Below, piece by piece: positions 7,166 to 40,055 of a stretch of 64,000 nucleotides of DNA. The number at the start of each line of letters is the position of its first letter. Position 1 is the stretch's first letter. Below the pieces are notes generated by a model. That model searched no databases and had not been told where the DNA came from. It was given only the letters and a program-made list of their open reading frames with translations. The position numbers and the translations under genes are program-made. Source of the DNA: Agaricus subrufescens (lineage: Eukaryota; Basidiomycota; Agaricomycetes; Agaricales; Agaricaceae). Where the stretch lies: contig CM057059.1 in assembly GCA_029945375.1 (NCBI GenBank), positions 4,185,452 through 4,249,451 of the forward strand, in the 5' to 3' direction.

Positions 7166-7684
7166 GCAGGAGATAGGTCAGTAAGGAGGGGTGCCGCCGG
7201 TGTGCGTCTATAGGCAGGAGAAAAGGTAGCAGGGAGGGTCACCACCGGGCCCGGGACTAGAAAAACGAGGCAGGAGACAGGTTAGTAGGGAGGGGCGCCC
7301 CCATAAAAAGGGAAGTAGAAAGGCTAGTAGAGAGGTTCGCCCCGGGCCCGGGCCTAGAGAAAGAGGCAGCATAAAGGTTAGTAGGGAGGGACGTCCTGAG
7401 AAAAAGAGGCAGGAGAAGGGGCAGTATGGAAGGGTGCCCAAGGTCCCCTGGCAGATGGAAAGAGGCATGAGAAAGGTGGGTAGGGAGAGCCGGCCCCAGA
7501 AAAAGAGGCAGGAGAAAGGGTGGAGGAGGGAGGTTAGGCGCTCGCAGAAAAAGAGGCAGGAGAAAGGATAGTAGGGCGGGGCGCCGTGCCCTGGGCACAG
7601 GAAAAGAGGCATGAGAAAGGTTAGTAGGGAGGGGCGCCACCAGAAAAAGAGGCAGGATGAAGCACAGTAGGGAGGGGCGCCCAA

Positions 7685-10600: not shown

Positions 10601-13600
10601 GGCCCCGGCCCAGAAAAAGAGGCATGAGAAATGTTAGTAGGGTGAGGCGCCTGCAGAAAAAGAGGCAGGGCAAAGGGTAGTAGGGAGGGGCGCGGACGGG
10701 CCCCGGGCCCAGGAAAAGAGGCATTAGAAAGGTTAGTAGGCAGGGGCGCCCCCACAAAAAGAGGCAGGAGAAAGGATAGTAGGGCGGGGCTCCGCCGGGC
10801 CCCGGACACAGGAAAGGAGGCATGAGAAAGGTTACTAGGTAGGGGAGCCCCCAGAAAAAGAGGCAGGAGGAAGCACAGTAGGGAGGGGCGCCCAAGAGTG
10901 GAGTGAATGTTTGCTTGGGCTGCAACAGGAACAGTAGGAACTGCAACGGCACTTTCACATACAACAGGTAAAGTTGCAGTGATAGCTGAGATCCTCGCCA
11001 TTTCCGAAGTGAAATCAGCACCACCCGAGCCTTTATAATCCAAGGGAACCAGCTCGAGCAATGGTCTCAAAGGCTATGCTACCGATGAAAGCATACCAGC
11101 ATAGAAAAAGAGGCAGTAGGTAGGTTAGCAAGAGGGGTGCCGCCGGGCTGCGCGCATAGAGAAAGAGGTAGGAGAAAGGGTAGCAGGGAGGGGCGCCGCC
11201 GGGCCCAGAGTAGAAAAAGAGGCAGGAGAGAGGTTAGTAAGGAGAGGCGCCCCCAGAAAAAAGAAGGAGAAAGGTTAGTAGGGAGGGGCGCTCCCCAAAA
11301 CCAGGCAGGAGAAATTGTAGCAGGGAGGGGTCCTAGAGACAGCGGCAGGAGAGAGGTTAGTAGCGAGAGGCGCCTGCAGAAAAACAGGCAGGACAAAGGG
11401 TAGTAGGGAGGGGCGCCGCCGGGCCCGGGCCCAGGAAAAGAGGCATAAGAAAGGTTAGTAGGTAGGGGCGCCCCCAGAAAAAGAGGCAGGAGAAAGGGTA
11501 GTAGAGAGGGGCGCCCAAGGTCTCCGGGCCTAGTGAAAGAGGCATGAGAAAGGTTAGTAGGGAGGGCGCCCCCAGAAAAAGAGGCAGGAGAAAGCACAGT
11601 AGGGAGGGGCGCCCAATAGTGGAGTGAATGTTTGCTTGGGCTGCAACAGGAGCATTAGGAGCACTGCTTGGCTTTTTATATCCCTAACGGGTAAATTCGG
11701 TAATCATTGATTCTCCCTTCAAAAATAATCAGCACTTATTTGAGCTATTATACGCGGGGAACCCAGCTTGAGCAATGGGTTCACAATCTAGGCTACGTAG
11801 ATATCAGCGCCAGACACAGAGGCAGGAGATAGGTCAGTAAGGAGGAGCGCCACTGGGCTGCGCGTATAGAGAAAGAGGTAGGAGAAAGGGTAGCAGGGGG
11901 GGGCGCCGCCGGGCCCCGGACTAGGAAAAGAGGCAGGAGAGAGGTTAGTAGGGAGAGGCGCCCCCAGAAAAAAGATGAAGGAGAAAGACTAGTAGGGAGG
12001 GGCGCTCTAGGCCTAGAGAAAGTGGCAGGGGAAAGGTTAGTAGGGAGGGGCGCCCACAGAAAAAGATGCAGGAGAAAGGGTAGTCGGGAGGGGTGCCGCT
12101 GGCCCCGGGGCCTAGGAAAAGAATCCTGAGAAAGGTTGGTAGGGAGGGGCGCCCCAGGAAAAGAGGCAAAAGAAAGGGTAGCAGGGAGGGGCCCCGGGCC
12201 TAGAGAAAGAGGCAGGAGACAGGTCAGTAAGGAGGGGCGCCACCAGAAAAAGAGGCAGGAGAAAGCACAGTAAGGAGGGGCGCCCAAGAGTGGAGTGAAT
12301 GTTTGCTTGGGCTGCAACAGGAACAGTAGGAGCTGCAACAGCACTTTCACGTACAACAGGTAAAATTGCAGTGATAGCTGAGATCCTCTCCCTTTCCGAA
12401 GCGAAATCAGCACCACCCGAGCCTTTATAATCCAAAGGAACCAGCTTGAGCAATGGTTTCAAAAACTATGCTACCAATGAATTTGTATCAGCATAGAAAA
12501 AGAGCCAGGAGATAGGTCAGCAAGGAGGGGCCCCACGGGGCTGTATCTATCGAGGAAGAGGTAGGAGCAATGGTGGTACGGATGGACGCCGCCAGGCTGT
12601 GTATAGAGAAATAGGTAGGAGAAATGCTAGTAGGGAGGGGTGCCGCCGGGCTGCGCCTATAGAGAAGCAGGTAGGAGGAAGGGTAATAGGGTAGGGCCCC
12701 GCCGGGCCTGGGACTAGAAAAAGAGCAAGGAGAAATGTTAGTAGGGGGGGGCGCCCCGAAAAAGCGGCAGGAAAAGGGCCAGTATGGCAGGGCGCCCAAG
12801 GGGCTTCCTACACCTATAGAAACAGAGGCAGGAGAAAGTGTAGCAGGGGCGGAGCCGCCGGGGCCCGGGCCTAGAAAAAGAGGCAGGAGAAAAGGTAGCA
12901 GGGAGTGGCGCCGCCGGGACCCAGACCTAGAACAAGAGGCAGGAGAAAGGTTAGTAGGCAGGGGCGCCCCCAGAAAAAGAGGCAGGAGCAAGTCTAGTAG
13001 CGAGGGGTGCCCCAGGCCCTGGGCGTAGACAAAGAGGCAGGAGAAAGGTTAGTATGGAGGGGCGCCTCCAGAAAAAGAGGCAGGAGAAAGGGTAGTAGGG
13101 CGGGTCGCCCAGGGGCCCTGGGCCTAATAATCTGCCCACTCGCGGCAGGAAAAAGGTGAGTAGGGCGGGGCGCCACCGGGCTGCGCCTATAGAGAAAGAG
13201 GTCAGAAAAAGGTTAGTAGGGAGGGCCGTCGCCGGGTTGTGGCTATAGACACAGAGGCAGGAGATAGAACAGTAAGCAGGGGCGCCGCCGGGCTGCGCCT
13301 AGAGAGCAGAGGTAGGAGAAAGGGTAGCAGGGAGGGCCGCCGCCGGGACGCGGGCCTAGAAAAGAGGCAGGAGAAAGGTAAGTAAGGAGGGGCGCCCCCA
13401 GCAAAAGAGGCAAGAGAAAGGGTAGCAGGGACGGCCGCCGCCGGGACGCGGGCCTAGAAAAAGAGGCAGGTGAAAGGTTAGCAGGGAGGGGCGCCCCCAG
13501 AAAAAGCGGCAGGAGAAAGTGAGGGGCGTCGCCGGGCCCCGGGCCCAGAAAAAGAGGCATGAGAAATGTTAGTAGCGAGAGGCGCCTGCAGAAAAAGAGG

Positions 13601-16137
13601 CAGGGCAAAGTGTAGTAGGGAGGGGCGCGGAGGGGCCCCGGGCCCAGGAAAAGAGGCATTAGAAAGGTTAGTAGATAGGGGCGCCCCCAGAAAAAGACGC
13701 AGGAGGAAGCACAGTAGGGAGGGGCGCCCAAGAGTAGAGTGAATGTTTGTTTGGGCTGCAACAAGAACGGTAGGAGCTGCAACGGCACTTTCACGTACAA
13801 CAGGTAAAATTGCAGTGATAGCTGAGATCCTCTCCATTTCCGAAGCGAAATCAGCACCACCCGAGCCTTTACAATCCGAGGGAACCAGCTGGAGCAATGG
13901 TCTCAAAAGCTATGTTACCGATGAATCTATACAAGCATAGAGAAAGAGGCAGTAGATAGGTTAAAAAGAGGGGCACCGCCGGGCTGCGCGTATAGAGAAA
14001 GAGGTAGGAGAAAGGGTAGCAGGGAGGGGCGCCGCCGGGCCCCGGACTAGGAAAAGAGGCAGGAGAGAGGCTAGTAGGGAGAGGCGCCCCCAGAAAAAAG
14101 AAGAAGGAGAAAGACTAGTAGGGAGGGGCGCTCTAGGCCTAGAGAAAGAGGCAGGGGAAAGGTTAGTAGGGAGGGGCGCCCACAGAAAAAGATGCAGGAG
14201 AAAGGGTAGTCGGGAGGGTAGTCGGGAGGGGCGCCGCCGGCCCGGGGCCTAGGAAAAGAAGCCTGAGAAAGGTTAGTAGGGAGGGGCGCCCCAGGAAAAG
14301 AGGCAAAACAAAGGGTAGCAGGGAGGGGCCCCGGGCCTAGAGAAAGAGGCAGGAGACCGGTTAGTAGATAGGGGCGCCCCCAGAAAAAGAGGCAGGAGGA
14401 AGCACAGTAGGGAGGGGCGCCCAAGAGTGGAGTGAATGTTTGCTTGGGCTGCAACAGGAACAGTAGGAGCTGCAACGGCACTTTCACGTACAAGGGATAA
14501 AGCTGCAGAGATAGCTGAGATCCTCTCCCTTTCTCAAGCGAAATCAGTACCACCCGAGCCTTTATAAGCCACGGGAACCAGCTTGAGCAATGGGTTCATA
14601 ATCTATGCTACTGATGAATGTGTATCAGCATAGACACAGAGGCAGGAGATAGGTCAGTAAGGAGGAGCGCCGCCGGGCTGAGCGTATAGAGAAAGAGGTA
14701 GGAGAAAGGCTAGCAGGGAGGGGCGCCGCCGGGCCCAGGAGTAGAAAAAGAGGCAGGGGAGAGGTTAGTAGGGAGAGGCGCCCCCAGAAAAAAGAAGGAG
14801 AAAGGTTAGTAGGGAGGGGCGCCCCAGGCCTAGAGAAAGAGGCAGGGGAAAGGTTAGTAGGGAGGGGCGCCCACAGAAAAAGATGCAGGAGAAAGGGTAG
14901 TCGGGAGGGGCGCCGCTGGCCCCGGGGCCTAGGAAAAGAAGCCTGAGAAAGGTTAGTAGGGAGGGGCGCCCCAGGAAAGGAGGCAAAAGAAAGGGTAGCA
15001 GGGAGGGGCCCCGGGCCTAGAGAAAGAGGCAGGAGACCGGTTAGTAGATAGGGGCGCCACCAGAAAAAGAGGCAGGAGAAAGCACAGTAAGGAGGGGCGC
15101 CCAAGAGTGGAGTGAATGTTTGCTTGGGCTGCAACAGGAACAGTAGGAGCTGCAACGGCACTTTCACGTACAAGGGGTAAAGCTGCCGTGATAGCTGAGA
15201 TCCTCTCCCTTTCTGAAGCGAAATCAGCACCACCCAAGCCTTTATAATCCAGCTTGCGCAATGGTCTAAAAAACTAAGCTACCGATGAATCTATATCAGC
15301 ATAGCAAAAGAGGTCACCGGGCTGCGCGTATAGAGAAAGAGGTAGGAGAAATGGTAGTAGGGAGGGGCGCCGCCGGGCCCCGGGCCTAGGAAAAGAGACC
15401 TGAGAAAGGTTAGTAGGGAGGGGCGCCCCAAGAAAAAGTGGCAGGAGAAAGGGTAGCAGGGAGGTGCGCTGCCGGGACCCAGGCCTAGTGAAAGAGGTAT
15501 AAGAAAGGTTAGTAGGGAGGGGCGCCCCCAGAAAAAAGCCAGGAGAAAGGGCAGTAGGGAGGGGCGCCCAAGGGCTCTGGGCCTAGTGAAAGAGGCATTC
15601 AAGTGTGCTCTCGATCGGTGGGTTAGGTTAGCTCTGCGGGCACCTGCCTCTTTGGGAAGTGTTAGTAAGCGCAATCAATGATGAGTGATGCGCGAGTGAA
15701 CAGCCACCTCAAGGGATCCTCTGGCTTGAACGCCACTTTAGGAAATATTGGTAAGGGAATCAGCCGAATCTCTCCGCTCCTAGTGAAAGAGGCATGAGAA
15801 AGGTGGGTAGGGGGAGGCGCTCCCAGAAAAAGAGGCAGGAGAGAGGCTAGTAGGGAGGGGCGCCCCCAGAAAAAGAGGCAGGATAAAGGATAGTAGGGCG
15901 GGGCGTCGCCGGGCTCCGGCCCCAGGAAATGAGGCATGAGAAAGGTTGTGGGGAAAGCAAACCCCAGAATTTTTTTGCAGGAGAAAGCACAGTAGGACGG
16001 GGCGCCCGATGGTCGAGTGAATGTTTGCTTGGGATACAACAGGAACGGTAGGAGCTGCAATGGTACTTTCACGTACAACAGGTAAGGTTGCAGTGATAGC
16101 TGAGATCCTCTCCCTTTCCGAAGTGGAAATCAGTTGA
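7685..16137 (+). repeat. Twelve copies of the ~205-bp spacer block inside satellite 1
   Basis: Each block starts near GAGTGGAGTGAATGTTTGC and ends near GAATCTATATCAGCATAG. The internal ATG lies at about 7696, 8219, 8852, 9332, 9828, 10907, 11628 (rearranged after ~70 bp), 12299, 13743, 14436, 15116 and 16021 (truncated by the junction with satellite 2). From that ATG most copies keep a frame beginning MFAWAATGTVGAATALS and reaching SAPPEPL. Three copies (7696, 8219, 13743) have CAA instead of TAA and read on to about 65 aa ending TDES(I)xA. Whether the frame is translated is unknown. Confidence 0.85.
15600..15780 (+). other. Non-repeat interruption of satellite 1
   Basis: About 180 bp (AAGTGTGCTCTCGATCGGTG through AATCTCTCCGCTCC) does not match the satellite unit or spacer. 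Normal units resume at about 15780. It could be a small insertion or a remnant of the sequence into which the array expanded. No coding potential or terminal repeats are evident. Confidence 0.5.
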
Positions 16138-19100
16138 TTTGTGGCCACGATGGAAAAAAATCATATTTTTGTGCCACGAGTAGACAAATGGTGACTTGCG
16201 GGCACCATGGAAAAAAACAATATTTTGTGCCGTGAGTGGAGAGGTGCTGACTTGCGGACAACGATGTATGCGCCGCGAGTCAAAAGCTGCTGACTCGCTG
16301 GCACTGCGGAAAAAAATAATATTTTGCGCCGCGAGTCGAGAGGTGCTGACTTGCGGACACTTTGGAACCAAATATTATTTTGTGCCGCGAGTCAAAGGGT
16401 GTTGACTCGTGGCCAGCTTTGAAAAAACAATATATGTGTATGTGCCACGAGTCAAAAGCTGCTGACTCACGGCTGCCGTGGAAAAAAATAATATTTTGTG
16501 CCGCGAGTCGAGAGGTGCTGACTCGCGGACACTTTGGAACCAAATAATATTTTGTGCCTCAAGTCGAGAGGCTTGACTTCATGAGACACTTTGGAACCAA
16601 ATAATATTTTGTACTCAAGTCGAAGGTGCTGACTCGCGGACAAGAATATATGTACCCTTGAAGTCAAAAGGTGCTGACTCGCGGCTGCTGTGGAAAAAAA
16701 TAATATTTTGTGCCCCGAGTCGACAGGTGCTGACTTGCGGACACTTTGGAACCAAACATTATTTTGTGCTGCGAGTCGACAGGTGCTGACTCGCGGACAA
16801 GAATATATGTGCCGCGAGTCAAAAGCTGCTGACTCGCGGCTGCCGTGGAAAAAAATAATATTTTGTGCCGCGAGTCGAGAGGTGCTGACTCGTGGACAAG
16901 AATATATGAGCCACGAGTCAAAAGCTGCTGACTCGCGGCTGCCGTGGAAAAAAATAATATTTTGTGCCGCGAGTCGAGAGGTGCTGACTCGCGGACAAGA
17001 ATATATGCAGCGAGTCAAAGCTGCTGACTCGCGGCTGCCGTGGAAAAAATAATATTTTGTACCGCGAGTCGGCAGTGCTGACTTGTGGACACTGGAACCA
17101 AATAATATTTTGTGCATAGTGAGCAGGTGCTGACTTCGCGGCTGCCGTGAAAAAATAATATTTTGTGCCGCGAGTCGACAGGTGCTGACTCGCGGACAAG
17201 AATATATGTGCCGCGAGTCAAAAGCTGCTGACTCGCGGCTGCTGTGGAAAAAAATAATATTTCGTGCCGCAAGTCAAGAGGTGCTGACTTGTGGACACTT
17301 TGGAACCAAATATTATTTTGTGCCGCAAGTCGAGAGGTGCTGACTTGCGGACACTTTGGAACCAAATAATATTTTGTGCCGCGAGTCGAGAGGTGCTGAC
17401 TCGCGGACAAGAATATATGTTACCCATGAGTCAAAAGCTGCTGACTCGCGACGCCTTCAGAGAAAAAAATAATGACTCGTGCATAAGTCAGAGGTGCTGA
17501 CTTGTGGACCCTTTGGAACAAATATTATTTTGTGCCGCGAGTCGAGAGGTGCTGACTCGCGGACAAGAATATATGTGCCGCGAGTCAAAAGCTGCTGACT
17601 CGCGGCTGCCGTGGAAAAAAATAATGTTTTGTGCCGCGAGTCGACAGGTGCTGACTTGTGGACACTTTGGAACCAAATAATATTTTGTGCCGCGAGTCGA
17701 CAGGTGCTGACTCGCGGCTGCCGTGGAAAAAAATAATATTTTGTGCCGCGAGTCGACAGGTGCTGACTTGCGGACACTTTGGAACCAAACATTATTTTGT
17801 GCCGCGAGTCGACAGGTGCTGACTCGCGGACAAGAATATATGTGCCGCGAGTCAAAAGCTGCTGACTCGCGGCTGCCGTGGAAAAAAATAATATTTTGTG
17901 CCGCGAGTCGACAGGTGCTGACTTGTGGACACTTTGGAACCAAATATTATTTTGTGCCACGAGTCGAGAGGTGCTGACTCGCGGACAAGAATATATGTGC
18001 CGCGAGTCAAAAGCTGCTGACTCGCGGCCGCCTTGAAAAAAATAATATTTTGTGCCGCGAGTGAAGAGGTGCTGACTTGTGGACACTTTGGAACCAAATA
18101 TTATTTTGTGCCACGAGTCGAGAGGTGCTGACTCGCGGACAAGAATATATGTGCCGCGAGTCAAAAGCTGCTGAATCGCGGCTGCTGTGGAAAAAAATAA
18201 TATTTTGTGCCGCGAGTCGAGAGGTGCTGACTTGCGGACACTTTGGAACCAAACATTATTTTGTGCTGCGAGTCGACAGGTGCTGACTCGCGGACAAGAA
18301 ATATGTGCCGCAGTCAAAAGCTGCTGACTCGTGGCTGCTGTGGAAAAAAATAATATTTTGTGCCTCAAGTCGAGAGGTGCTGACTCGCGGACAAGAATAT
18401 ATGTGCCGCGAGTCAAAAGCTGCTGACTCGCGGCTGCTGTGGAAAAAAATAATATTTTGTGCCGCGAGTCGACAGGTGCTGACTTGCGGACACTTTGGAA
18501 CCAAACATTATTTTGTGCCGCGAGTCGACAGGTGCTGACTCGCGGACAAGAATATATGTGCCGCGAGTCAAAAGCTGCTGACTCGCGGCTGCCTTGGAAA
18601 AAAATAATATTTTGTGCCTCGAGTCGAGAGGTGCTGACTTGTGGACACTTTGGAACCAAATATTATTTTGTGCCGTGAGTCAAAGGGTGTCGACTCGTGG
18701 CCAGCTTTGAAAAACAATATATGTATATGTGCCACGAGTCGAAAGCTGCTGACTCGCGGCTGCGGTGGAAAAAAATCACATTTTGTCCAGCAAGTCGACA
18801 AATGGTGACTCGCGGCCACCATGGAAGAAAACAATATTTTGTGCTGCAAGTCGAGAGGTGCTGACTCGCGGACAAGAATATATGTGCCGCGAGTCAAAAG
18901 CTGCTGACTCGCAGCCGCCGTGGAAAAAAATAATATTTTGTGCCGCGAGTCGACAGGTGCTGACTCGCGGACACTTTGCAACTAAATATTATTTTGTGCT
19001 GTGAGTCAAAAGGTGTCGACTCGCGGCCAGCCTTGAAAATTTTAATATTTTCCCCTGCAAGTCACAATATCTCAACTCGTGGCCAGCCTTCAAAAAATAT

Positions 19101-20660
19101 ATATATTTTGTGCGGCGAGTTGTAAGCTGCTGACTCCTGGCCACCATGTCACAGAATATTATTGTATCCCGCGAGTCAAAACGTCTTGAGGCGCGGTTAC
19201 CATTGCAACAAAATAATATTTGTGCCATGAGTCCAAAGGTGTTGACTCACGGCAGCTGTGAAAAAAAATAAAATTTGTGTCACGAGTCTAAAAGTGTAGA
19301 CTCGTGGCCACCCTTGAAAAAAATAATATTTATCCCCCACAAGTGGCAATAATTAATGTGTCAACTCGTAGCCAATCATCACAAAGATAACATGGTTACT
19401 ATGATAACCCCTTAACCCCTTAACCAACTTGTGGTTTAAAGCAATTTTTTTTCGGGGGGGAATGTGGTGTACTATTATTGTGTAAAATGAATGATGTAAA
19501 AATGGATTATAAAATGGTATTCTAAGGGGTAATGTATATATATATGTGCACTTGTTTTAAGTGGATCGTATTGTGGTAAATGCTAAAAACAACAATTGTG
19601 CTGCAGACTTGAGGCAGCCATGAAAAAAAAATGAGAATTGTGCCGCAAGTCAAAAGGTGTTGACTTGCAGCTGGCCTTGAAAAAAAAGAATTTGTGCCAA
19701 GAGTGGAAAACTGCTGACTCACAGCAACTGGACATTTTGTCCCGTGAGTTGAAAAGTCTGGGCTCACTGCCACCATTGAAACAAAATAATGTTTGTGTGG
19801 CGAGTCAAAAGGTGTTGACTTGCGGCCAGCCTTGAAAAAGCAATATATGTGCTGCGAGTCGAAAGCTGTGGACTCGCGGTCATAGCGGACAAAAATCATA
19901 TTGTGTCCTGCGATTCAAAAGCTGCTGACTCGCGGCCACCATTGAAAGAAAATAATATTTGTGCTGCAAGTAAAAAGGTGTTGTGTTGAGTCGTGGCCCC
20001 TGTGAAAAAAAATTTTTGTGCCGCGAGTCAAAAGGAGTCGACTTGCGGCGCCTATGAAAAAAACTAATAATGTTTGTGTTGCGAGTCACAAAGTGTTGAC
20101 TCGTGGCCAGCCTTGAAAAAAACCATATATGTGCCGCGAGTCGAAAGCTGTTGACTTGCGGCCACCGTGGAAAAAAAATCATACTTTGTCTAGCGAGTCA
20201 AAACCTGCTGACTCGCAGCTACTGTTGGACAAAATATTATTTTGTCCCGCGAGTCAAAACGTGTCGACTTGCGGCTGCTGTGAAAAAAACTAATATTATT
20301 TGTGTCGCAAGTCACACAGTGTCAACTCGCGGCCACTGTCAAAAGAAAATAATGTTTGTCCCGCAAGTCAAAAGGTGTTGACTCACAGCCCTTGTAAAAA
20401 AATAAATATTTTGTGCCTCGGGTCAAAAGGTGTCGACTCGCGGCCAGCCTTGAAAAAACCAATATATGTGCCAGGAGTGGAAAGCTGTTGACTTGTGGCC
20501 ACCGTGGAAAAAAAATCATACTTTGTCTCGCAAGTCAAAACCTGCTGACTCGTGGCTACTGTTGAACAAAATATTATTTATTTTGTCCCGCAAGTCAAAA
20601 CGTATTGACTTGCGGCCACCATTGAAACAAAATATTATTTGTGCTGCAAGTCAAAACGTC
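16138..20660 (+). repeat. Satellite 2: hairpin-forming ~50-bp units, ~99-bp dimer
   Basis: The array repeats an A/T block (GGAAAAAAATAATATTTTGTG or GGACAAGAATATATGTG) followed by CCGCGAGTC, a ~10-nt variable loop such as GAGAGGTGCT, and GACTCGCGG. Each unit therefore carries a 9-11-bp inverted repeat able to form a hairpin or cruciform. Two loop classes (AAAAGCTGCT and GAGAGGTGCT/GACAGGTGCT) alternate to give a dimer of about 99 bp. Units from 16200 to 19000 are well conserved; from 19000 to 20660 they are diverged. The 400-codon minus frame at 17457-18659 and similar ones are artefacts. A degenerate relic of the unit occurs at 23390-23540. Confidence 0.9.
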
Positions 20661-20770: not shown

Positions 20771-21456
20771 TCACCCCTCCATACCCACTTCTTCCTCCCT
20801 AGCTTCTGCCCTCTCCCTCTTCAACCTCTTGAGCACCCCCACTGCCAGCCTCACATCCTTCACCCTCAGCAGCTTCCTACATAGGATAGTGCAGCAGAGA
20901 TGATTGCTCATCTGAAACACTTCATCCAGATACTCAGCACACCCCTGAATCAGGGCTGTCCAGGCTAGCTGCTCTATTGCCTGTTATACTTAATCAGTAA
21001 CTAATCGCCCGCAACATACTCACAACTTACCATGGGACACAGGTCGGGACATATCTCCATGATGATGTCCAGGATCATGGCCATGATCCCTCTAGTCATC
21101 TCATAGTCCATGATGGTGGGTATTCTCACCGTCTGTCCCTAATACATGGTCAGTAAATAATACCATCACTTTTATACATGCATTAACACTTACATCTATT
21201 GCTCTTTCCACCATGACAATGATGTTTCCATTCTGCAAAATAACAATTATTCAGTAATTTTGCCAACCGGAATGAAGGAATCAATACTCACAGCGTCAAG
21301 AGGATGATATTGAGGAGCCTCCTCCACAACCTCCACAGCCTCCTCCACCACCTCCTCAGCCTCCTCCACTATCACCTCCTCGACGCTCAGCGGTCCCTCA
21401 GCTATAGCCAGAGCCTCGGTCATCCCAATGAGAGCTATATCCTCTTGTTTCTGCAT
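20771..21456 (-). CDS. Histone H3-fold-like protein A, acidic N-terminus
   Basis: Four exons (21456-21292, 21232-21194, 21138-21031, 20980-20771) splice in frame with GT-AG introns to 173 aa. Residues 1-55 are acidic (repeated VEEA/VVEE). Residues 69-173 resemble the H3 histone fold: helix 1 MTRGIMAMILDIIMEIC, helix 2 LIQGCAEYLDEVFQMSNHLC, loop 2 plus helix 3 RVKDVRLAVGVLKRL. The comparable H3 segments are ALQEA.EAYLV.LFEDTNLC and KDIQLARR. The basic H3 tail and most DNA-contacting arginines are absent. It is homologous to the gene at 25757-26623 over the fold, the short exon before it and the 5' leader. I infer a chromatin or histone-pairing role; another histone-fold family (TAF, CENP or NF-Y type) is possible. 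The start is the ATG placed like that of the paralogue. Confidence 0.6.
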
Positions 21457-21462
21457 ATCGTT

Positions 21463-21483
21463 GTGGTGGTGTAGAACGATAAT
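21463..21483 (-). promoter_or_regulatory. 5' leader segment shared by the two histone-fold-like genes
   Basis: Just upstream of the start of gene A the leader reads ATCGTTCTACACCACCACAAC. Gene B has ATCATTCTACAACACCACCAC at about 26647-26667, also just before its start codon. Further upstream both have TTTAGTAATCA. Conservation of non-coding leader sequence supports common descent of the two genes and the choice of start codons. Confidence 0.5.
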
Positions 21484-21810
21484 TTGTTCACCGCCAGTCC
21501 ACCTTAAATATCTCTTGCACCCAGTGATTACTAAACACTTTACTAAACACTCACATACCCGACTCATCCAATAGCCATTCTCGGCGGCACAAAGATATCC
21601 GCCGAACAAAGATATGTGATCGCTTACTGAACCTTACCAAATAGCTTTCCATCCTCTCAGTCCTTGCTTTCTTATAAATGATGTCCCTAATTTTCCACCG
21701 CGCCTGGACCACAAATTAACAGTCTAATTTCTATTCTGAAGTCCCTTCTTTTAGTGAGAAATGTGCATGTTTTAGCATTCTGATATTCCAATGTTATATC
21801 TTTGTAGGAA

Positions 21811-21845
21811 TGACATGATTTTTTGTGTACGTCAAACCTAGACCC
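21811..21845 (-). promoter_or_regulatory. TGACGT-type upstream element of gene A
   Basis: TGACATGATTTTTTGTGTACGTCAAACC lies about 370 bp upstream of the gene A start. The matching element upstream of gene B is at 26746-26773. The core, read on the gene strand, is TTTGACGTA, like a CRE/ATF bZIP site. The same motif is amplified in the 102-bp tandem repeat at 22660-23068. Function is inferred from conservation and motif only. Confidence 0.45.
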
Positions 21846-21879
21846 CAAGAAGCTAGAATCGTAGATCCAGGCATCAAGC

Positions 21880-22650
21880 AAAATTTATGGCCGTTGTCCC
21901 TTAGCTATCGGGAACGACTTGGATTAAGAATTACGAATTATGAATTACAAAATGACAGGTGCAGAGCACCTTTAATTCCTTGCCGCGCTCACAGAAAATA
22001 CGACGCAGACACTTTTCTGTGTCCAGCCTACATTGCGTGGACTCATTATTTCTGCTGTAGCGCATCTATGTGAGACAGAAAACACAATCTGCACCCAACG
22101 GGAGATATGTGATGGATTGTTCTGAGGGCTCTCACCACTGCATGGCCTACGGCAAATACACTAATCTCCGAGATTACGTGAATCATATACTACTTCCGAG
22201 GGTGAAAAGCAGGGTAGCTTGCTTTAGACAACACAACTTGTCCAATCCGGAAAAATAGGTTCCATCACAAGCAGTCCCGTAGATCAACAGGATTTGTATA
22301 TTTTTCTTTTGTTTTTGTTTTTCGCCTTTTTTCTGGCAGTGTTATTAGGCGCAGGATGTAGCTAATGCTCTTTAGAAGCGTGTTGTGTCATACGAAGTAG
22401 ATGTTTTGTAAGAAAATAATTGAATGTTTATGTAGTCGGGCAGTACGTGTTCGGGATCTGCTTTATTTGGTTCAAACCAAAAATAGGCGAACAATTACAG
22501 AACTGTGCCCAATAGCTTTCCATGCTCTGAATATAATTGCTTTCCTATGATCTCGTTATTTTTCACCCTGGCTGCACCCAAGTTAAGCAGACAGATTGCC
22601 ATGTTTTGGACATCTGGTATTTGAATCCGATATCTTTCTAGCAGTTGCAT
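21880..22650. other. Region without a supported gene
   Basis: A short plus-strand frame at 22070-22258 encodes HHCMAYGKYTNLRDYVNHIL and reads like ordinary protein, but it has no recognisable family, start context or splice partners. I do not call it a gene. The remainder is AT-rich, with a T-rich tract at about 22300. Confidence 0.35.
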
Positions 22651-23075
22651 GATTTTTTGTTTACGACAAACCTAAACCCCAGGAAGCCAAAATTTTAAAT
22701 TGAGGTACCAAAATTTTCTAATTTACATTGTCTGTATTGTCCGTTGTATTGTCTGTCGTCCTTTACGTCGAACCTAAACCCCAAGAAACCAAAAGTGTAA
22801 ATTGAGGTATCAAAATTTTCTAATTTATATTGTCTGTATTGTCCGTTGTATTGTCTGTCGTCCTTTACGTCGAACCTAAACCCCAAGAAGCCAAAAGTGT
22901 AAATTGAGGTATCAAAATTTTCTAATTTATATTGTCTGTATTGTCCGTTGTATTGTCTGACATCCTTTACGTCGAACCTAAACCCCAAGAAGCCAGAATT
23001 GTAAATTGAGGTAATCAAAATTTTCTAAAATTTACATTATCTGTACTGTCCGTTGTCCCTTAGCTACCGGGAGTG
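22650..23075 (+). repeat. Tandem repeat, four copies, 102-bp period
   Basis: TTTACG(T/A)CGAAC plus CTAAACCCCAAGAAGCC starts at 22660, 22762, 22864 and 22966, exactly 102 bp apart. Each copy continues into CAAAATTTTCTAATTTATA and TTGTCTGTATTGTCCGTTGT. The first and last copies are more diverged. The unit contains the TTCGACGTAAA motif that also occurs upstream of both histone-fold-like genes. Sequence after the array (GTTGTCCCTTAGCTACCGGG, 23050) also matches 21893-21912, so the whole 21.8-23.1 kb stretch is an internal duplication. The minus frame at 22695-23018 only reflects the repeat. Confidence 0.85.
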
Positions 23076-24924
23076 ACAATGAAAATATGAATTATCAATG
23101 ACGAAATTGCAGGAAAGGATAAATTTAGAAATGACAAATGATCATGAATTGCTTCCCGCTCAATTTGCACCGGTGAATCCTCGGAGTGTGTCACGTGTGC
23201 ATCTCTCTAGTGAAGCCCGACTCACTCCTGTTAAATGACATTTTCTATGGGGCAGCGCTATTTGTTGTGACTGAGATTGTTATTTATTGGTATTTTAAAG
23301 CCTCGAGATAGGGTTCTTACATGGGCTCGCGGAGTAATGCAGGACGCTTTTTGTTGTGGAGCCTGCATTGGGCATGGTAGAGGGAATTTGTGTTGACTCG
23401 CAGCCACTCAATCTTGAGGATAAAAAAGTTTTTCTACTCAGGCTACAGGTTGATGGGTGCCAACTTGTGACTACTCGAAAAAAATTTTTTTGTGCCACAA
23501 GTGGCGAGGTGTCATCAACTCCCGGCTACAAGTGTGGAATCCACGTGAGGACGGGAACTAATGTGGGCTGGATGGACACTTGACATTGAATCAGCGGACA
23601 TGCACTGTAGTGAGCCCAAAAAGTTGATTACCCCCATTTGGATTAGTATATCATGGGAACTTTCAACAGGAGGAGTGCCAAATGAGCGTCAGAGATGCTA
23701 TCTGGGACAATGATTCTGACTATGGTAGCTGGGATCATAAGAGGAGGTGTCAGTATAGTGTGAGTGGTAGATGAGATGACAAGTGTGGTTTGCTAGGCAG
23801 TATTGACGGAAAGACTGTTTCCGGTATTTAAACTGGTTGAATGCCGGAAATAGATTTTAGGTGAGACAAATAAGAGACAGCTGAAATACAGGGATTTGTA
23901 CTTAAATATGAAGGATATGAGTGCTTTCAAAATCGAGTTCAATGAAAGAACCCCGGAATGCCAACCTCTGGGGATGGGTACGGTCCTACCCCAGGTGGGG
24001 ACAGGACATGGGATAGTGTCGGGCAAAAGTGCGGATCCGGCGGGCGGGCGGACTTGACAGGGAATAACCCGAGGTGGACATGGCTTGCATGTTGGAGGAA
24101 AGTATGATTGTGTAGAATAGATGGTATAATGGGTAGAGATAGAGCAAGGGTATTGAAAATTTAAACACACAAGGTGAATGATAGTCAGATTATGGCAACG
24201 CAGAAACAATATCAAGGCATGGCGGGGCTGGATGCGTGCTGATGCAGACCAATGAGGATGGGTGCGGGCATCATGCGGACGCCTTGGGTACTGATGCGGA
24301 CACCATGGGGACAGCGACACCTCCTTCAGATCTCCTTAACACTGATAAAACATGAATCTTATAATGGTTGTAACACTTATTAGGATATGTGTAAATGAAA
24401 AATTGGCAGATTTAAAAAGCTACAAAGTACCGTATGGATATATAGAAGTGGGTTGATAACATTCAAGAGAGGCTTGATGCGGACACAAGGCAGGCTGGAC
24501 GTGGAAAAAGAGTCGACATGGGTGTGTGCATTTTTCTGCAAGCGCATTTTAGGACTGATAAAAGGTCAGGGTTATAATGATTATCAGCATGAGTGTGATG
24601 AAGGAGAGAGGATATGATACGGAAAATAGCAGTCTACAGGAAATAGGAGGAGGGCGGGATGGGCATTTTTCCTGTGTTGTGAGGGTGTAGTGTGGATGGA
24701 GTAGAATAAGTGAGATAATTATAACAGAATAAAGATTATAGCACTCACGCGGGGCTCTCATAATAATAAATAAAAAAAGAAGTTGCTGTATCTGGGTTTA
24801 TGGATGAAAGTAGGAGAGTCAGTGTTTGGATTTGGGGTACCAGGGTTGTTGTGTTGGATAGTAAATAAATTGGAGCTTATGGGGACTGAGTGACATGTTA
24901 GATGCTACTGTAGGGCATAATTTA
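23076..24924. other. Intergenic, TE-derived sequence without genes
   Basis: There is no convincing coding frame. 23390-23540 carries a decayed piece of satellite 2 (TGTTGACTCGCAGCC ... AAAAAAATTTTTTTGTGCCACAAG). 23604 has a solo end of the CACTG MITE. 23940-24330 is rich in GCGGAC/GTGCGGGC words also seen at 27700-27860 and 30800-31370, probably remnants of one non-coding repeat family. Confidence 0.45.
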
Positions 24925-25569
24925 GGGCTACCAGAAATACGAGGAGCCCACTGCGGGCTGTTTTCCCGTGTTGAGCCCGCGTCAGCCTCTTTTTCCGCGT
25001 CTAGTCCGGGTCTAGTCGGTGTCGAGTAGAATAATCCACATAATTATAATAAAGTAACCTTATAATATTTAAAAAACATCCTCCCCTCCGTATAGAATTA
25101 TTTTTCTTGTGCTCTATCTTGCTTTATGTATGTAATTATGGCCTTAGTTTTCCCACTTGTTGCTCAAATATGGTGACCTTAGTTGTGTTATCTATACCCT
25201 CCCACGTCAAGCCCTCGTGAGCCCGCGTCTGATCCTCTGATCCCTCTTCGCGTCCTCATTTGTCCGTGTCGTACACTCGTGATCCCGTGTTATGTTTTCA
25301 TCATTAATTAGCTATATCTATTGAATATTTGAGTGGCCTACCACCCTTGCCGTCTTCTATAATAAATTAGCGGTTCCCCCCACTTCCTGCCTATGTTAGA
25401 CCCTCCTCTAGCCCATAATTAAACCTCCACCCATTTGCGCCCCTGGTGTTTGTCGGCGTGTGTCGGCGTGTTAGTTGGCGTGTTAGTTGGCGTGTTAGTT
25501 GGCGCATGTTAGTCAGCGTCAGCATGTAAGCCTTGTCAGCACACAGGCTCCTTGTATTTGCTGTAGCCC
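24925..25569. mobile_element. Non-autonomous TIR element, copy A, with 9-bp target duplication
   Basis: The 645-bp element begins GGGCTACCAGAAATACGAGG and ends CTTGTATTTGCTGTAGCCC. The ends are inverted relatives (GGGCTAC...ATAC.AGGAGCC). CATAATTTA flanks it on both sides (24916-24924 and 25570-25578), a perfect 9-bp target site duplication. It matches copy B at 32454-33033 along its whole length. Nine-bp duplications are typical of Mutator-like elements, so a MULE-derived MITE is the best guess. It has no coding capacity. GCGTGTTAGTTGG is tandemly repeated at 25460-25505. Confidence 0.8.
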
Positions 25570-25756
25570 CATAATTTAAGGTTGAGGGATTTGAAGTGGG
25601 TTGTGATTGTGTGTGAATAAGGATTGTGTGGGGACAGGGTGGTTGTATCTGGTATAGCTGGGGAAAAATAGGCAAGAAGGAAAAACAAGTAAAGTAAGAT
25701 TAGATAAGTGGGAATAAATTGATAACTAAAAATAACCATGTCTATGGATTAATTAA

Positions 25757-26623
25757 CTAGTGGCTTGATTCAGATTTAGCTCTGTTTATGATGTCTACTG
25801 CTAACCGGAGGTGCTTAGGCTGGAGCTCCTTCTTGAAGAGGGCAGTAAGGACATCAGAACTCTTGTCAAAAAGATCATCCAACATTTGAATAGATGCCTG
25901 GAGGAGGGGCAGCCATGCATCTTCTTCAAGTGGCTGTTGTGTGTATATGAGAAAAGAACATAGGAGATAGAGTTATAACGTACTAGAGGAGATATGTCAG
26001 TGACTATCTCCCTGACAAGTTGTGAGATGCCAGCTGTGATCTCAGGATGGATTGGGATCGGGATGTGTATGTTTTGTGTGCCTTGAAGACGGGGTAGGAG
26101 GACCAGCAGTCTGCCATCCTGAAAAATAAATAAATATGGAGGATTATGGTGGACATGAATGAATAGTTACGGGATGGAAAGGTTGCTCCTGCTGGCTGTG
26201 AATTTGGTCGGGTTGGGTCTGAACTTGGTCAGGTTGGATGTGAATTTGGTCGGGTTGGATGTGAATTTCCTCGAGTTGGATGTGAATTTCCTCGGGCTCA
26301 ATCTTGACGTCCTCCTGGACTGGTAGGGTAATAGGCTCCTCCTCCTCTATCTTGACCTCGTGTTTGAGCTCTGGTTTAACATGGGCGTCATGGTCGATCT
26401 TGACCTCAATCTTAATAGCTTCTTGCTCGGTCTTGAGCTCTGGTTTAATGTCGGGCTGCTCCATCTTGACCTCGGCCTTGACGTGTACGGGGATTTCGTG
26501 CTCGATTTTGCACTCGGTCTTGACTTGTTGGTTGAGGATTGCTCCTGCCAGTGGTCGTGTATCGCGGTTTGCACCGGGGGTGGCAGCAGTGGCGCTGGAG
26601 AGTGTCTTGTCCTTGACGTCCAT
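25757..26623 (-). CDS. Histone H3-fold-like protein B with SUMO-consensus tail
   Basis: Three exons (26623-26171, 26118-25984, 25933-25757) join in frame to 254 aa. Residues about 32-150 form an acidic low-complexity tail with about ten PsiKxE/D motifs (VKTE, VKAE, VKME, IKPE, LKTE, IKIE, VKID, VKPE, LKHE, VKIE twice). Repeated IHIQPDQ strings follow. Residues about 175-250 match the paralogue and an H3 fold: helix 1 ISQLVREIVTDI (H3 has RLVREIAQDF), helix 2 WLPLLQASIQMLDDLFDKSS, helix 3 region PKHLRLAVDIINRAK. PsiKxE is the consensus for SUMO attachment, so I infer a heavily SUMOylatable nuclear protein. No basic histone tail is present. The start was chosen by alignment of the leader with gene A. 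Confidence 0.62.
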
Positions 26624-26745
26624 CGTTATGCTGGTGTATTGGATGTGGTGGTGTTGTAGAATGATGATCGTTAATGCTGTATGCAAATTGAATAACTGTT
26701 GTACGAAATGATTACTAAAGACTGGGACACGGGAATAAAGGGAGA

Positions 26746-26773
26746 TGACATGATTTTTCCTTTACGTCAAACG
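26746..26773 (-). promoter_or_regulatory. TGACGT-type upstream element of gene B
   Basis: TGACATGATTTTTCC and TTTACGTCAAACGG lie about 140 bp upstream of the start of gene B and match the element upstream of gene A. On the gene strand the core is TTTGACGTAA, a CRE/ATF-like site. Confidence 0.45.
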
Positions 26774-26799
26774 GAAAGCGGACGAAGCTAAGATTGTAA

Positions 26800-28735
26800 A
26801 TGGAGGGATGAGATACTATGGATTACATTTCGGTTGTCTGTGGGGGAGTGGGAATGCGGACAAGTAGTAAAATATGAATGAATTTGGTGTGATCGGTGGG
26901 TGGATGCTGGACTCGGATGCTTGAGTATTTGATGCGTTATTGTAGAAGTGCCATTGTTGGTATGTCAGCTTGTAGGTGTTGTAATCTATGAGATAGGGTA
27001 TAGCGTGTTGTAGAGCTGCCTGGTCTGCAAGCATGTAACCTGAATAATTAGTTTGATACTGACGGCGGCTACTGTAGGACAGAAAGTCGATGTTGTTATA
27101 TACTCATGGGTATATGTATCCTGTAAGTGTGCTAAAGGAAATCAATAATGGATCCCAAGTATAGAGTCAGGTAAGCGGTTGCTCGAGAGCAGCGTTGGCT
27201 GAGCAAAGCTGAAGTGTTGTTTCGACTGCCCGGATCATTGCAGTGTTCTATGCTGGTTTGATGAGAGCGAGAACGTGAACAATAAGATTGTTAAGGAGAG
27301 GATACTGCACAATACGACACAATTACGATTTACGATTTAAGATATTTACAATAGGATATCTACGATACAACATTTACCGGATACAATATTTATGATTGAT
27401 TGACTGACCATACTGACGATATTATACCATACTGACGATATTATACCATACTGACCATTGACCGTTTGACCATCCATTCGATGCATTCCATCGGGCTACA
27501 GCAAATGCGAGGAGCCCGGGCGCGGACAACATTTCACACAGGCTTCACGCGGGATGTCAGTTTAGTTCTGGGTATAAAAGATGGGAATTTATACTTTGCA
27601 TGCTAGCTATACAGTAGCTATGTATAGTATTTATGTATATAAGCCAAGTGAAAAGGATTAAGGGAGTTATTGTAGTCAGTGGAAAGACTCTCAAACTGTA
27701 TGGATCTTTGCTGGGGATGAGCAAGTAAATGCGGCGGGCAGGTGCGGAGGGATGGGGACAGACAAAGGTATCTATATTTGGGGAGAGGACTTGGCGGGGA
27801 CATGACAGACTGCCCGAGGGCAAGGTGCGGGCAAGTTATGGGAGGGAAATCCAATGCTCAGAATGGATTTCGAGGACCCCAATGTGGACATTAGAGACTA
27901 CTGAAATAAGTACATGGTATTGGACCGGATACGCGACCAGGAAGCTGGGTAACAGTAAACACGAAGATGTTAAAGGGAGAGGAGCCAGTAGGCTAATGCT
28001 AGGTCTACACTTCAGGTTCAAGCTTCTTGAATTTTACATCAAACTCGTGCCACTGATCGTGAGTCCACATCTCTGTGCCAGTACTGACAGTCTCTAACAA
28101 TTACACTTGAAGTACTAAGGTCTTCGAATAGAGAACTGCCTTATTCAATTATTAGCTAGAATAATGTTCGTGTGTAAGGTTGATGATTTTTTGTAGTGTG
28201 ACGATGATGATTAGGATATTTACTCTTTAGGTCATTGTGCAGAGTGATGAGCTTAAAAGTGATTTGACAGAGCGACAGTACATGTATTACGAAATGCGAG
28301 GGTCATTATTACGAATATGGTACCGAGTATCATTTGACTAGTACAAGTGCTGGTAATGTATATCACACATAGTCAATGCTTGTGACTGCCCATGACCAGA
28401 AGTCCCAAACGCAACATAAGAGATAGAGTGAAAACCCTGTAGTCAATGTTTGAACTAGCGTATTCGGTGGCAGAAGTGAAGTGCAACGACATACACTCCA
28501 GCTGTATTATGAAAAAGACTGTCCACATAAACAATCTTGCTATCTGAGAACCTTCGCATTTACACAAGATTGATTACCAGACTTTGTTGCTTATAGCCCG
28601 AACCTGCTTGAGAATGCCATGGTCCAGGGGCTCACGGTGCGGAGACTGAGCCTTATGGATAAATTTAGTAAAGTAGGTAGGGTAGAACTCATCAGAACTC
28701 AGAGATACAAACTCTTGCGCAGCATCCAGAGGAAA
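26800..28735. other. Intergenic, no supported gene
   Basis: Several short frames exist but none has family resemblance or splice logic. At 27415-27450 CATACTGACGATATTATAC is duplicated. 27493 carries a single TIR end (GGGCTACAGCAAATGCGAGG) of the family at 24925 without a detectable partner. A minus frame ending at 28574 (EFYPTYFTKFIHKAQSP) is possible relic coding sequence. Confidence 0.4.
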
Positions 28736-29627: not shown

Positions 29628-29940
29628 CTCAGAACATTAATTCCCCCGGGACAAATTGTGCCCAGGACCTGGTTTTTCCAAGCAACCTTTGGTGTACTAA
29701 GTCTTGCACCATATACACAGCCCGGTAACAAATCAAAAAAATCAACTTACCAGTCTATAGCCCAAATGTTCCACCACCCATCGGGTTCACCAATCAACAG
29801 CCATCTCACAGTGATGCCGTCACTCCTCGATCCCGCTGATTAAAACCGCCACTCCCTATGCTTTATTCAAGATCATCAGATAAGATCTTGATTGGTTTTC
29901 CGATTATACAACGCCAAAGTCCACATACACGACATCTGCC

Positions 29941-30651
29941 ATGACCAGTATCCCTGACTCTCCAGAGATTTCTAACACCCCTGCCCAAATCCCATCCCCT
30001 CTCTCCCCAAATCCCACCAACGGCAAGAGGACAGCCCAAGATTGTACCAGCCCTATCCCCCCCAAACGCAGGACTACAGACAATAATCCCACATCTTATC
30101 TCAACCCTGACTCTTCCCGGAAGCACAACTTCTGGGTCAGCGTTTGGTACAATGGCGAGAGAACCGCCACACGCAGCGTCGTTTTAACCTACACTGCCCT
30201 CGCCGTCTACAAGTGTGTGGGACATGACGTCACCTCCAATATAACGGTTAATCAGACCTTGTCCATGACCTACGAGGACGACCCCATGTGGTTCAAGGCC
30301 ACCTTCTCCCTACCCCCAAGCGTGGGAAAAACACTCCTCTCAGCTACCTATGTCGAATCAAAGGTTGCCCTCGTCATTTTTGCTCCCTACCCTTGCACCA
30401 CCCAGATTATCACACTTGCAGACTTGGAAGAGTGGAAGAATTATAGGGCAAAGACAGGAGTTATGGGGGACCTTATGGCAAAGTCAGTCATCACAGGAGG
30501 TAGACCGTATACCTGGAGCATAGCCAAGTGTTCTCTTGTCAATGAGAGCATTGCGCGAAACCGGAAGGCAAGAGTTCCCGATCTCCCCAAGCACCCTTTG
30601 CAGGAGTATTTCCACCGCACTGAATCCATCGCAAAGGTTGAGATCATTTGA
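29941..30651 (+). CDS. Single-exon orphan protein, 236 aa
   Basis: An ATG at 29941 opens 236 codons to a TGA at 30651. The N-terminal 60 residues are Pro/Ser-rich with a basic PPKRR motif (possible nuclear localisation). The rest (from about residue 62, HNFWVSVWYNGERTA) looks like a folded beta-rich domain with regular hydrophobic spacing, ending LPKHPLQEYFHRTE. No family is recognised. It has no predicted membrane segment or signal peptide. It sits between repeats, with no neighbour suggesting a pathway. The balanced codon use, absence of stops and sensible composition support a real gene. Confidence 0.6.
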   Translation: MTSIPDSPEISNTPAQIPSPLSPNPTNGKRTAQDCTSPIPPKRRTTDNNPTSYLNPDSSRKHNFWVSVWYNGERTATRSVVLTYTALAVYKCVGHDVTSNITVNQTLSMTYEDDPMWFKATFSLPPSVGKTLLSATYVESKVALVIFAPYPCTTQIITLADLEEWKNYRAKTGVMGDLMAKSVITGGRPYTWSIAKCSLVNESIARNRKARVPDLPKHPLQEYFHRTESIAKVEII

Positions 30652-33101: not shown

Positions 33102-33990
33102 TTAAAATAAAACCGGAGTGTCCATGTGATTCTCAGTACGGTGGTCACTGAAATTGTCAATTTGATGAGCTAACGTAGTCCACTCGTCGAACTTCATAGG
33201 AAGAGGAAGTCGTGTTCGGATTTCCATCTGGATATAAGTGTCGATCACCTTCTCATAGTAGTCAATCAGAACTTGGTCATCTTTGAGTCCAGCTCGATGG
33301 GCAGTGATCCTGAAACGAGAGTTGAAGGTTGATATAGCTTCACCTTGCTGGTGGATGGAGGTCAACTCATGAAACGCATGAGCTCGAGTATCTGTTGGAG
33401 TGAAAGACTCATCCAGTTTGTCCAGCAAGACCCGATGAGACAGAGGAATTAATACGTGATTAATTGTGTATTTGTCCACAGACAATTGAACCCAGATTAC
33501 GGCCTTACCTCTGTTCATTAATCCCGGCATGGACAAGGTTTTGTCATTTCATTAGTGAAATCCGCAGCATGAAAGGTGAAGAAAACTTCGCATTGAGTTC
33601 TCCAGTGCATGTAGTCGTCACGGTGCCCGTAGAATGCTGGAGGTTGAGGGAGCTCATATTTTGGACTGAGTGGTGTGGATAGTGGCAGCAGAGACAGTAG
33701 CGACCTGCGCTTGCAATTGTGCTTGTTCAGCTGATGCCACTTGAACGGCAGCGTTGGACATATCAATAGAAGGAAAATGGATAGGTGTTGGAGGGCATAT
33801 GGGTGAAGTCGCAGTATGAGATGCCAGGGGCTTGTTTGATAAATCCGAAGTTTCTAACGATTGGAGTGCAGGAGATGTACGCAAAGGAATATCCGAATCA
33901 AGGGGAGTACCAGCCCCCAAGTCAATTAGGACTTGAGTCTGCAAAGGTCGGATGCGAGAAGGACTTCTTGACGTTATTGGGTAGTTTACA
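33102..33990 (-). pseudogene. Ty3/gypsy gag, frameshifted
   Basis: Read on the minus strand, the order is: a Q/A-rich leader (VASAEQAQLQAQVATV), a typical gag start (QPPAFYGHRDDYMHWRTQCE) in another frame, and a capsid-like segment (LDKLDESFTPTDTRAHAF, FNSRFRITAHRAGLKDDQV). These match the retrotransposon gag fold of gypsy elements. At least two frameshifts or stops break it, and protease and RT are missing downstream. Confidence 0.7.
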
Positions 33991-39935: not shown

Positions 39936-40055
39936 CATCAGCAAAAGGTTTGGCTACTTGAAGCTACTTGAAGCTACTTGAGGGCTACTTGAGAATTTTC
40001 AAGCAGCCCTCAAGTAGCTTCAAGTAGCTTTAAGTAGCCAAACCTTTTGCTGATG
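39936..40055. mobile_element. 120-bp fold-back element with 51-bp arms
   Basis: 39936-39986 and 40005-40055 are reverse complements with one mismatch; the 18-nt loop is itself partly palindromic. The ends read CATCAGCAAAAGG / CCTTTTGCTGATG. Each arm contains GCTACTTGAA repeated in tandem. CACAT occurs next to both ends and may be a target duplication. Comparison with the LINE copy at 58960-59000 shows that the LINE sequence is continuous without this segment, so it is an insertion that broke ORF2. Confidence 0.8.

Follow-up and report, generated by a model that had tools for sequence, protein, structure and literature searches.

A tandem gene pair of Agaricus subrufescens encoding acidic-tailed proteins of probable histone H3 descent

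Two genes, henceforth referred to as A and B, lie in tandem on the minus strand of a 64,000-nt stretch of Agaricus subrufescens DNA (the window). Their products share a C-terminal module of about 100 residues that very likely has a histone fold and that probably derives from histone H3. An earlier note on this DNA had observed a gene pair with a shared H3-like module, and this observation was confirmed.

Gene structure and the shared module

Splicing was reconstructed and yielded a 173-aa product for gene A and a 254-aa product for gene B. Exon 1 of gene A (21456-21292), as judged from splicing and composition, encodes an acidic tail with the SIM-like stretches VIVEE and VEVVE. The conserved module begins in exon 2 (21232-21194) with NGNIIVMVERAID, where a third SIM-like stretch, IVMVE, is located; all three were found with a loose pattern used without a shuffle control. 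A pre-helix segment and α1 are encoded by exon 3 (21138-21031). Intron 3 (20981-21030), which was compared with H3 introns, falls within loop 1, and exon 4 (20980-20771) supplies α2, loop 2, α3, a charged C-terminus and the stop codon. In gene B, exon 1 (26623-26171) encodes a 151-aa tail containing an array of PSI-K-x-D/E motifs followed by HIQPDQ repeats. Exon 2 (26118-25984) encodes the conserved pre-helix segment and α1 with the motif LVREI, intron 2 (25934-25983) again lies within loop 1, and exon 3 (25933-25757) encodes α2, loop 2, α3 and the stop codon. All five introns are bounded by GT-AG and are 50–59 bp long; all exon lengths are divisible by three, which places each of these introns in phase 0. 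The product lengths and introns proposed earlier were therefore reproduced, while the description of the genes as divergent is correct for their sequences but not for their orientation.

The C-terminal modules of A and B are identical in 35 of 100 columns of a BLOSUM62 alignment (z 15.7 against 500 shuffles), and each identified the other as its relative in a tblastn search of the genome (E 6.8e-5 and 2.5e-5). The same searches returned no sequence other than A and B, each of them in two copies. Between the two genes, differences are fewest at the second codon position (34 of 100, versus 53 and 64 at the other positions). The dN/dS comparison that had been proposed for the pair gave a dN of 0.64, but the ratio is unusable because dS is saturated.

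No relatives were found in the other collections searched. Searches of a protein database returned 10 candidates for residues 50–173 of A, none within E 1, 168 candidates for residues 150–254 of B, none within E 10, and 33 candidates for the profile A1, none within E 10. A scan of viral contigs returned 61 stretches that fit the pattern, none of which was a relative. The earlier statement that no described family has this build agrees with the Pfam, protein-database and viral-contig results, although these absences are weak evidence because the collections searched probably hold few fungal proteomes. Among the papers listed by the literature searches, none was found to describe such H3-derived, acidic-tailed proteins.

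Resemblance to histone H3

The H3 order of α1, loop 1, α2, loop 2 and α3 is followed by both modules. Among 23 listed buried positions of H3, 21 are hydrophobic in A and 21 in B; V117 is replaced by lysine in both. When the register was slid along 22 core positions (V117 omitted), the count for B fell from 21 to 6–15. Of the motifs quoted in the earlier note, QLVREIVTDI occurs in B, whose partner A contains both GCAEYLDEVFQMSNHLC and KDVRLA; LVREI in B, F-x-x-S/T and K-D/H-V/L-R-L-A are also motifs of canonical H3. A phase-0 intron in loop 1 occurs in A and B as well as in all three H3 genes inspected. Identity to H3 is low, at 17 of 67 positions for A and 19 of 67 for B, so that roughly three in four positions of the fold differ. 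In a manual alignment, loop 1 of A exceeds that of H3 by three residues, and loop 1 of B is one residue shorter.

The basic tail and the αN region of canonical H3 are gone from A and B. Their tails are acidic, and only 3 of 11 basic fold positions remain basic in B and 2 of 11 in A. R83 of loop 1 and T118 of loop 2 are lost in both proteins. The earlier remark that few DNA-contact arginines remain is in line with these counts. Some basic residues are new: both proteins have K117, and A adds R120 and has a C-terminus that is basic. DNA contact by either protein may for this reason still occur. The retained core register would suit highly divergent but still nucleosomal H3 variants deployed at particular loci or stages. 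A also retains C110, R116, D123 and L126 of the H3-H3 bundle, and its longer loop 1 is reminiscent of CENP-A. Nucleosomal variants are nevertheless unlikely, given the few basic positions kept, the loss of R83 and T118, the bundle changes at H113, D123 and R129 in B and at H113 and R129 in A, and N-terminal tails that are acidic rather than basic.

Like A and B, CENP-A is a diverged form of H3 that has an N-terminal tail of its own and an altered loop 1. The earlier suggestion of a centromere factor is disfavored in the CENP-A sense, since a clear CENP-A gene is present separately on C2. That gene lacks the loop-1 intron, and A and B differ from CENP-A in keeping few of the basic fold positions of H3.

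A two-sequence profile of A and B, searched blindly against PDB sequences, gave 94 matches with a best E of 0.013. Among the matches listed (60 of 94) all are H3 chains, 59 by name and one as "Histone domain-containing protein". The reversed profile, used as a control, gave 2 matches, both non-histone (E 0.3 and 1.8). With hhalign, H3 scored 16.8 against the A and B profile and was the best of nine histone-fold families, the other eight scoring 1.4–13.1. This score exceeded all 300 column shuffles (maximum 12.3, mean 3.5); the program's own probability for the match is only 7.5%, with an E of 0.0031 for one comparison.

It is also unlikely that A and B are subunits of a transcription or kinetochore complex whose histone fold stems from a different branch, such as a TAF9-like one, and came to resemble H3 by convergence. 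KDVRLA and LRLAV recall α3 of TAF9 and H2A as well, the H2A genes of the same genome also carry a loop-1 intron, and the archaeal histone was second to H3 for the joint profile (13.1, reached by 4 of 300 shuffles) and ahead of it for B alone (11.9 versus 10.7). Set against this are the loop-1 intron shared with H3 genes, the uniform H3 identity of the PDB matches listed, and far lower scores for TAF9 (4.8), TAF6 (2.3), NF-YB (2.8) and NF-YC (5.3), each family being represented by one sequence.

Other searches did not recover a histone. Pfam, with matches accepted up to E 10, returned nothing for A, four non-histone families for B and nothing for four pieces of the module, and H3 was not found in PDB searches with A alone, with B alone or with a profile of the last exons. 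The AlphaFold check proposed earlier was applied to the α2-loop 2-α3 halves of A and B only; it gave low-confidence three-helix models (pLDDT 70 and 74) with a broken helix 2. In Foldseek, the low-confidence model of A's half gave 0 matches and that of B's half gave 59 weak matches (best E 2.4), with no histone among the best 50 of 59. The earlier H3-fold reading is therefore supported by the blind profile search and its reversed control, the shuffles, the core register and the loop-1 intron; the low-confidence half-fold models are weighed neither for nor against it. The same models, the Pfam result and the low hhalign probability would fit helical proteins that lack a histone fold and resemble H3 by chance; in view of the supporting lines just named, we consider this quite improbable.

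Tails and surroundings of the locus

The 54-aa tail of A contains 16 D/E and 1 K/R, whereas the 151-aa tail of B contains 32 D/E and 16 K/R. Over its first 60 residues A has a pI of 4.05, and over its first 152 residues B has one of 4.88. The long acidic N-termini described earlier are thus plain in A, while B is only net acidic with mixed charges. Twelve of the 14 lysines in the tail of B lie within the SUMO-consensus PSI-K-x-D/E, in an array spanning residues 34–109 (26524-26297). The tail has 10 strict SUMO motifs, compared to a maximum of 5 in 20,000 shuffles, and these acceptor motifs suggest that it is a candidate SUMO substrate. All 12 DNA 12-mers of the array are distinct, which counts in its favor; decayed repeats may, on the other hand, have produced it. 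A 21-bp repeat is also present in the tail region.

The upstream regions of the two genes are related. A proximal upstream or 5' UTR block of A (21460-21539, minus strand) is 69% identical to its counterpart in B (26645-26723, minus strand), and a distal block of A (21810-21874) is 74% identical to that of B (26745-26809). An extra copy of the upstream region of A occupies 22478-22711 (63% identity to 21607-21877), and a 102-bp tandem array built from distal upstream sequence occupies 22660-23056. On the other side of A, a 56-bp satellite with the dyad GCCGCGAGTC..GACTCGCGG extends over 16135-20656, with no TRF row at 19331-19769. The earlier note placed two satellites a few kb away; the 56-bp satellite is nearer, ending about 115 bp from the stop codon of A. 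At the second copy of the locus no trace of the adjoining 43-bp satellite was detected, and its junction with the present copy may exist in this assembly alone. The second copy of the A/B locus, at C3:3.93 Mb, may itself be an assembly artefact, and the surroundings form a mosaic that is duplicated and possibly misassembled. A megablast search of a neighboring 8 kb against plasmids gave no match.

A repeat-rich, duplicated setting and the lack of relatives in the databases searched would be expected if A and B were decaying, unexpressed copies derived from H3. Because the frames are open, the five introns are good and both a codon-position bias and a register-specific core are seen, decay is very unlikely. 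It is more improbable still that the locus is selfish, with A, B and their private dyad satellite acting jointly on chromosome segregation or spore survival in the manner of a driver. In favor of this, exact-type satellite units (98 matches at ≤ 2 mismatches) were matched nowhere but at the two copies of the locus on C3, the locus occurs twice, and the proteins have fallen to 35% identity while the upstream blocks stay at 69–74%. Against it, the link is one of association only and the second copy is uncertain.

Proposed role of A and B

A and B look like an H3 without most of its DNA-gripping residues and with new tails, one of them rich in SUMO-consensus sites; a role in regulating chromatin, not in packing DNA, is therefore probable. 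Our preferred account, which as a whole remains tentative, is that A and B are a tandem-duplicated pair descended from H3. Each has lost the basic tail, the αN region and most basic fold positions, and has an unrelated, acidic tail as well as a hydrophobic pre-helix segment that is conserved. As the H3 histone-fold core is kept, each would still be expected to form a handshake dimer, the likeliest partner being H4 or the other member of the pair. Proteins of the TAF9, NF-Y and CENP-T type use a non-nucleosomal histone fold for dimerization and carry functional tails. A and B look similar in this respect, even though TAF9, TAF6 and NF-Y are distant by score, and like TAF9-type or CENP-T-type proteins they could act outside the nucleosome, with the fold joining a complex and the tail recruiting. 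The tail of B would be SUMOylated at multiple sites along the PSI-K-x-E array and would attract SUMO readers, of which A could be one by virtue of its SIM-like stretches. A locus-bound version, in which the two proteins no longer wrap DNA but pair up, and in which B as a poly-SUMO scaffold and A as its reader act on the adjacent private satellite and control regional silencing or segregation, is highly improbable.

Lineage-restricted, H3-derived variants are known from other fungi. PMC6703697 describes H3V-CTG of Candida albicans, in which positions 31, 32 and 80 deviate from H3, and states that noncanonical H3 variants occur in Basidiomycota too. A and B, by comparison, deviate from H3 at about three quarters of the fold. 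The fungal H3 variants met in the literature consulted are close copies or CENP-A.

Few proteins are as conserved as histone H3. Two proteins that retain its core but have shed most of the residues that make a nucleosome would show how a packaging histone can become a regulatory scaffold, and would make it possible to test directly if folds derived from H3 can carry SUMO signaling. If A and B are linked to the private satellite, they would also bear on the co-evolution of satellites and histone-like proteins.

Gene structures and paralogy of A and B

The two genes encoding H3-like proteins are henceforth referred to as A and B: A lies at 21456-20771 and encodes 173 aa in four exons, and B lies at 26623-25757 and encodes 254 aa in three. 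The spliced products proposed in the earlier note were reproduced; each of the five introns is 50-59 bp long, in phase 0 and bounded by GT-AG. Introns 1 and 2 of B are equivalent to introns 1 and 3 of A, which contains one additional intron. The genes are arranged in tandem 4.3 kb apart, both on the minus strand, and are not divergent as had been described.

The C-terminal modules of ~100 residues, correctly recognized earlier as common to both proteins, are identical at 35 of 100 aligned columns, 15.7 SD above 500 shuffles, and the N-terminal tails gave no alignment (score -21 vs a shuffle mean of -14). Differences at codon positions 1, 2 and 3 (53, 34 and 64 of 100) leave the second position most conserved, which fits the expectation for coding sequence under constraint. 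Saturation was seen for dS. Judged by their sequences, A and B are paralogues. Two upstream blocks can be aligned between them, one of 80 bp at 69% identity and one of 65 bp at 74%. The stretch between the genes also contains a 102-bp tandem array of the upstream region and an extra, decayed copy of it. When 21457-23110 was searched against the genome, 22221-22481 was the sole part with matches beyond the two copies of the locus (two places, 73%); at the sensitivity of that search, the upstream blocks thus appear private to the pair.

Resemblance to histone H3

The H3-like fold described in the earlier note was not recovered by Pfam or single-sequence searches with A and B, which found no histone, but was supported by a profile built from both modules; a profile restricted to the last exons found no histone. 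The two-module profile, compared with 177,635 distinct PDB sequences and with no target chosen beforehand, produced 94 matches with E no higher than 10, and the best 60 of them were H3 chains (best E 0.013). Among these 60 listed matches, 59 were named H3 by their depositors and one "Histone domain-containing protein", and the alignment to the listed H3 chains spanned alpha1 to alpha3. The reversed profile, used as a control, matched two sequences, neither of them a histone (E 0.3 and 1.8). Upon hhalign comparison of the two-module profile with nine family profiles, H3 scored 16.8, archaeal HMfB 13.1 and the remaining families 1.4-5.4; hhalign's own probability for H3 was just 7.5%, with an E of 0.0031 for one comparison. 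Column shuffles, which covered H3 and HMfB, reached the H3 score in 0 of 300 cases (mean 3.5, maximum 12.3) and the HMfB score in 4 of 300. H3 was the top-scoring family for A alone (11.8), and for B alone HMfB (11.9) was slightly above H3 (10.7).

In the H3 register, each protein has a hydrophobic residue (counted as A, V, I, L, M, F, W, Y, C or T) at 21 of 23 positions considered buried in H3, and the V117 position is a lysine in both. With V117 omitted, shifting B by 1-6 residues left 6-15 hydrophobic positions vs 21 of 22 unshifted; for A, 21 of the 22 were placed, with 20 hydrophobic unshifted and 6-17 after the same shifts. Predicted models of the single-frame alpha2-loop2-alpha3 halves reached pLDDT 70 and 74 with helix 2 broken, and no histone was among their listed structure matches.

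A phase-0 intron lies in loop 1, between K79 and T80, in all three H3 genes examined, and A and B also carry a phase-0 intron in loop 1, ~4 codons or less from that of H3 by hand alignment. Since loop 1 of the CENP-A gene (contig C2) is without an intron, this points to an H3 gene rather than CENP-A as the ancestor. H2A genes of this genome contain a loop-1 intron too, so the intron by itself is no proof of H3 ancestry. A histone fold in A and B is highly likely, and an H3 origin is likely.

Satellites and mosaic surroundings

As the earlier note had indicated, a large satellite lies nearby: the 56-bp array ends ~115 bp from the A stop. Its dyad unit, searched as a 29-base pattern with up to 2 mismatches, which more diverged copies would escape, was matched 98 times in the 44.65-Mb assembly (79 times forward and 19 times in reverse), and the matches listed all fall at the two copies of the A/B locus on contig C3. 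Satellite-like sequence is also present inside the gene pair (23391-23513, 65% identity to the 56-bp satellite). Any link of A and B to the satellite is very improbable. The adjoining 43-bp satellite (6689-15905) is G+C-rich (AGAAAAAGAGGCAGGAGAAAGG..GGGGCGCC); its 34-base unit, with up to 3 mismatches, gave 56 matches, all on C3 and C4.

The segment from 16.3 to 64 kb is repeated 270 kb upstream (C3:3.931-3.979 Mb). From 20 kb on, 17 mismatches and 1 gap separate the two copies, none of them inside A or B, and the satellite arrays differ. Left of the 3.93-Mb copy no 43-bp array was detected, and a 169-base piece shows 97% identity to 15596-15763. The left end resembles C4: 1-6000 matches from C4:3622642 at 100% (rounded; bit score slightly below the self match), 6000-8356 has satellite units at corresponding places with a 3-base shift, and 8356-9270 shows complete identity to C4:3631000-3631914, beyond which C4 departs from the satellite. 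A 500-base probe ~5.5 kb left of the window was identical to C4, and more distant probes on that side (C3:4150000, 4100000 and 4000000) were not. These C4-like left and C3-like right matches make the window a mosaic joined through two satellites and ending at the contig end. A misjoin, a haplotype left unmerged or a genuine segmental duplication could each account for it, and the second gene copy may therefore exist only in the assembly. Elsewhere, histone gene matches at C5:1961533-1961876 and C17:22240-22583, the latter a small contig, have equal scores, which suggests that a haplotype copy was left unmerged during assembly.

Several transposons occupy 28000-64000, where a gag-like ORF (33105-33548, below Pfam's cut-off) and reverse transcriptase (40023-41876), Copia-type (56505-58535) and Tc-type transposase (62321-63361) ORFs were identified. 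A minus-strand ORF (2543-3001), whose several CxxC pairs resemble a zinc finger by eye, and a 255-residue open frame beyond B (29884-30648, plus strand) gave no Pfam match at E 0.01.

Altered residues, tails and putative role

Few DNA-contact arginines remain, as noted previously: B keeps 3 and A keeps 2 of 11 basic H3 positions. Loop-1 R83 and loop-2 T118 are absent from both proteins, and new basic residues occur at K117 in both and R120 in A, whose C-terminus is charged and basic. In place of the alphaN region, both proteins have a common hydrophobic segment (NGNIIVMVERAIDGQTVRIP and DGRLLVLLPRLQGTQNIHIP), which could form two short strands. Ordinary nucleosome formation has fairly probably been lost.

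The acidic N-termini reported earlier describe the 54-aa tail of A (16 acidic vs 1 basic residue) but not fully the 151-aa tail of B, which holds 14 lysines. Loosely SIM-like motifs are found in the A tail (VIVEE, VEVVE) and at the module start (IVMVE). In the B tail, PSI-K-x-D/E motifs take in 12 of the 14 lysines, and strict motifs number 10 vs a maximum of 5 in 20,000 shuffles. The 12 motifs are encoded by 12 different DNA 12-mers and are thus no fresh tandem copy; decayed internal repeats, visible by eye, could be the source of the array. The chances that SUMO is used are about even.

The best reading, which goes beyond the sequence facts, is that A and B would use their H3-derived module for dimerisation outside nucleosomes and their tails for recruitment, which in B would be SUMO-based. 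In keeping with the earlier statement that no described family of this build was known, no relatives were found in the databases searched and no description of proteins of this build among the literature entries listed. Since noncanonical H3 variants are already mentioned for Basidiomycota in PMC6703697, there is nothing new in divergence from H3 by itself; unlike that divergence, the build of A and B appears to be new.
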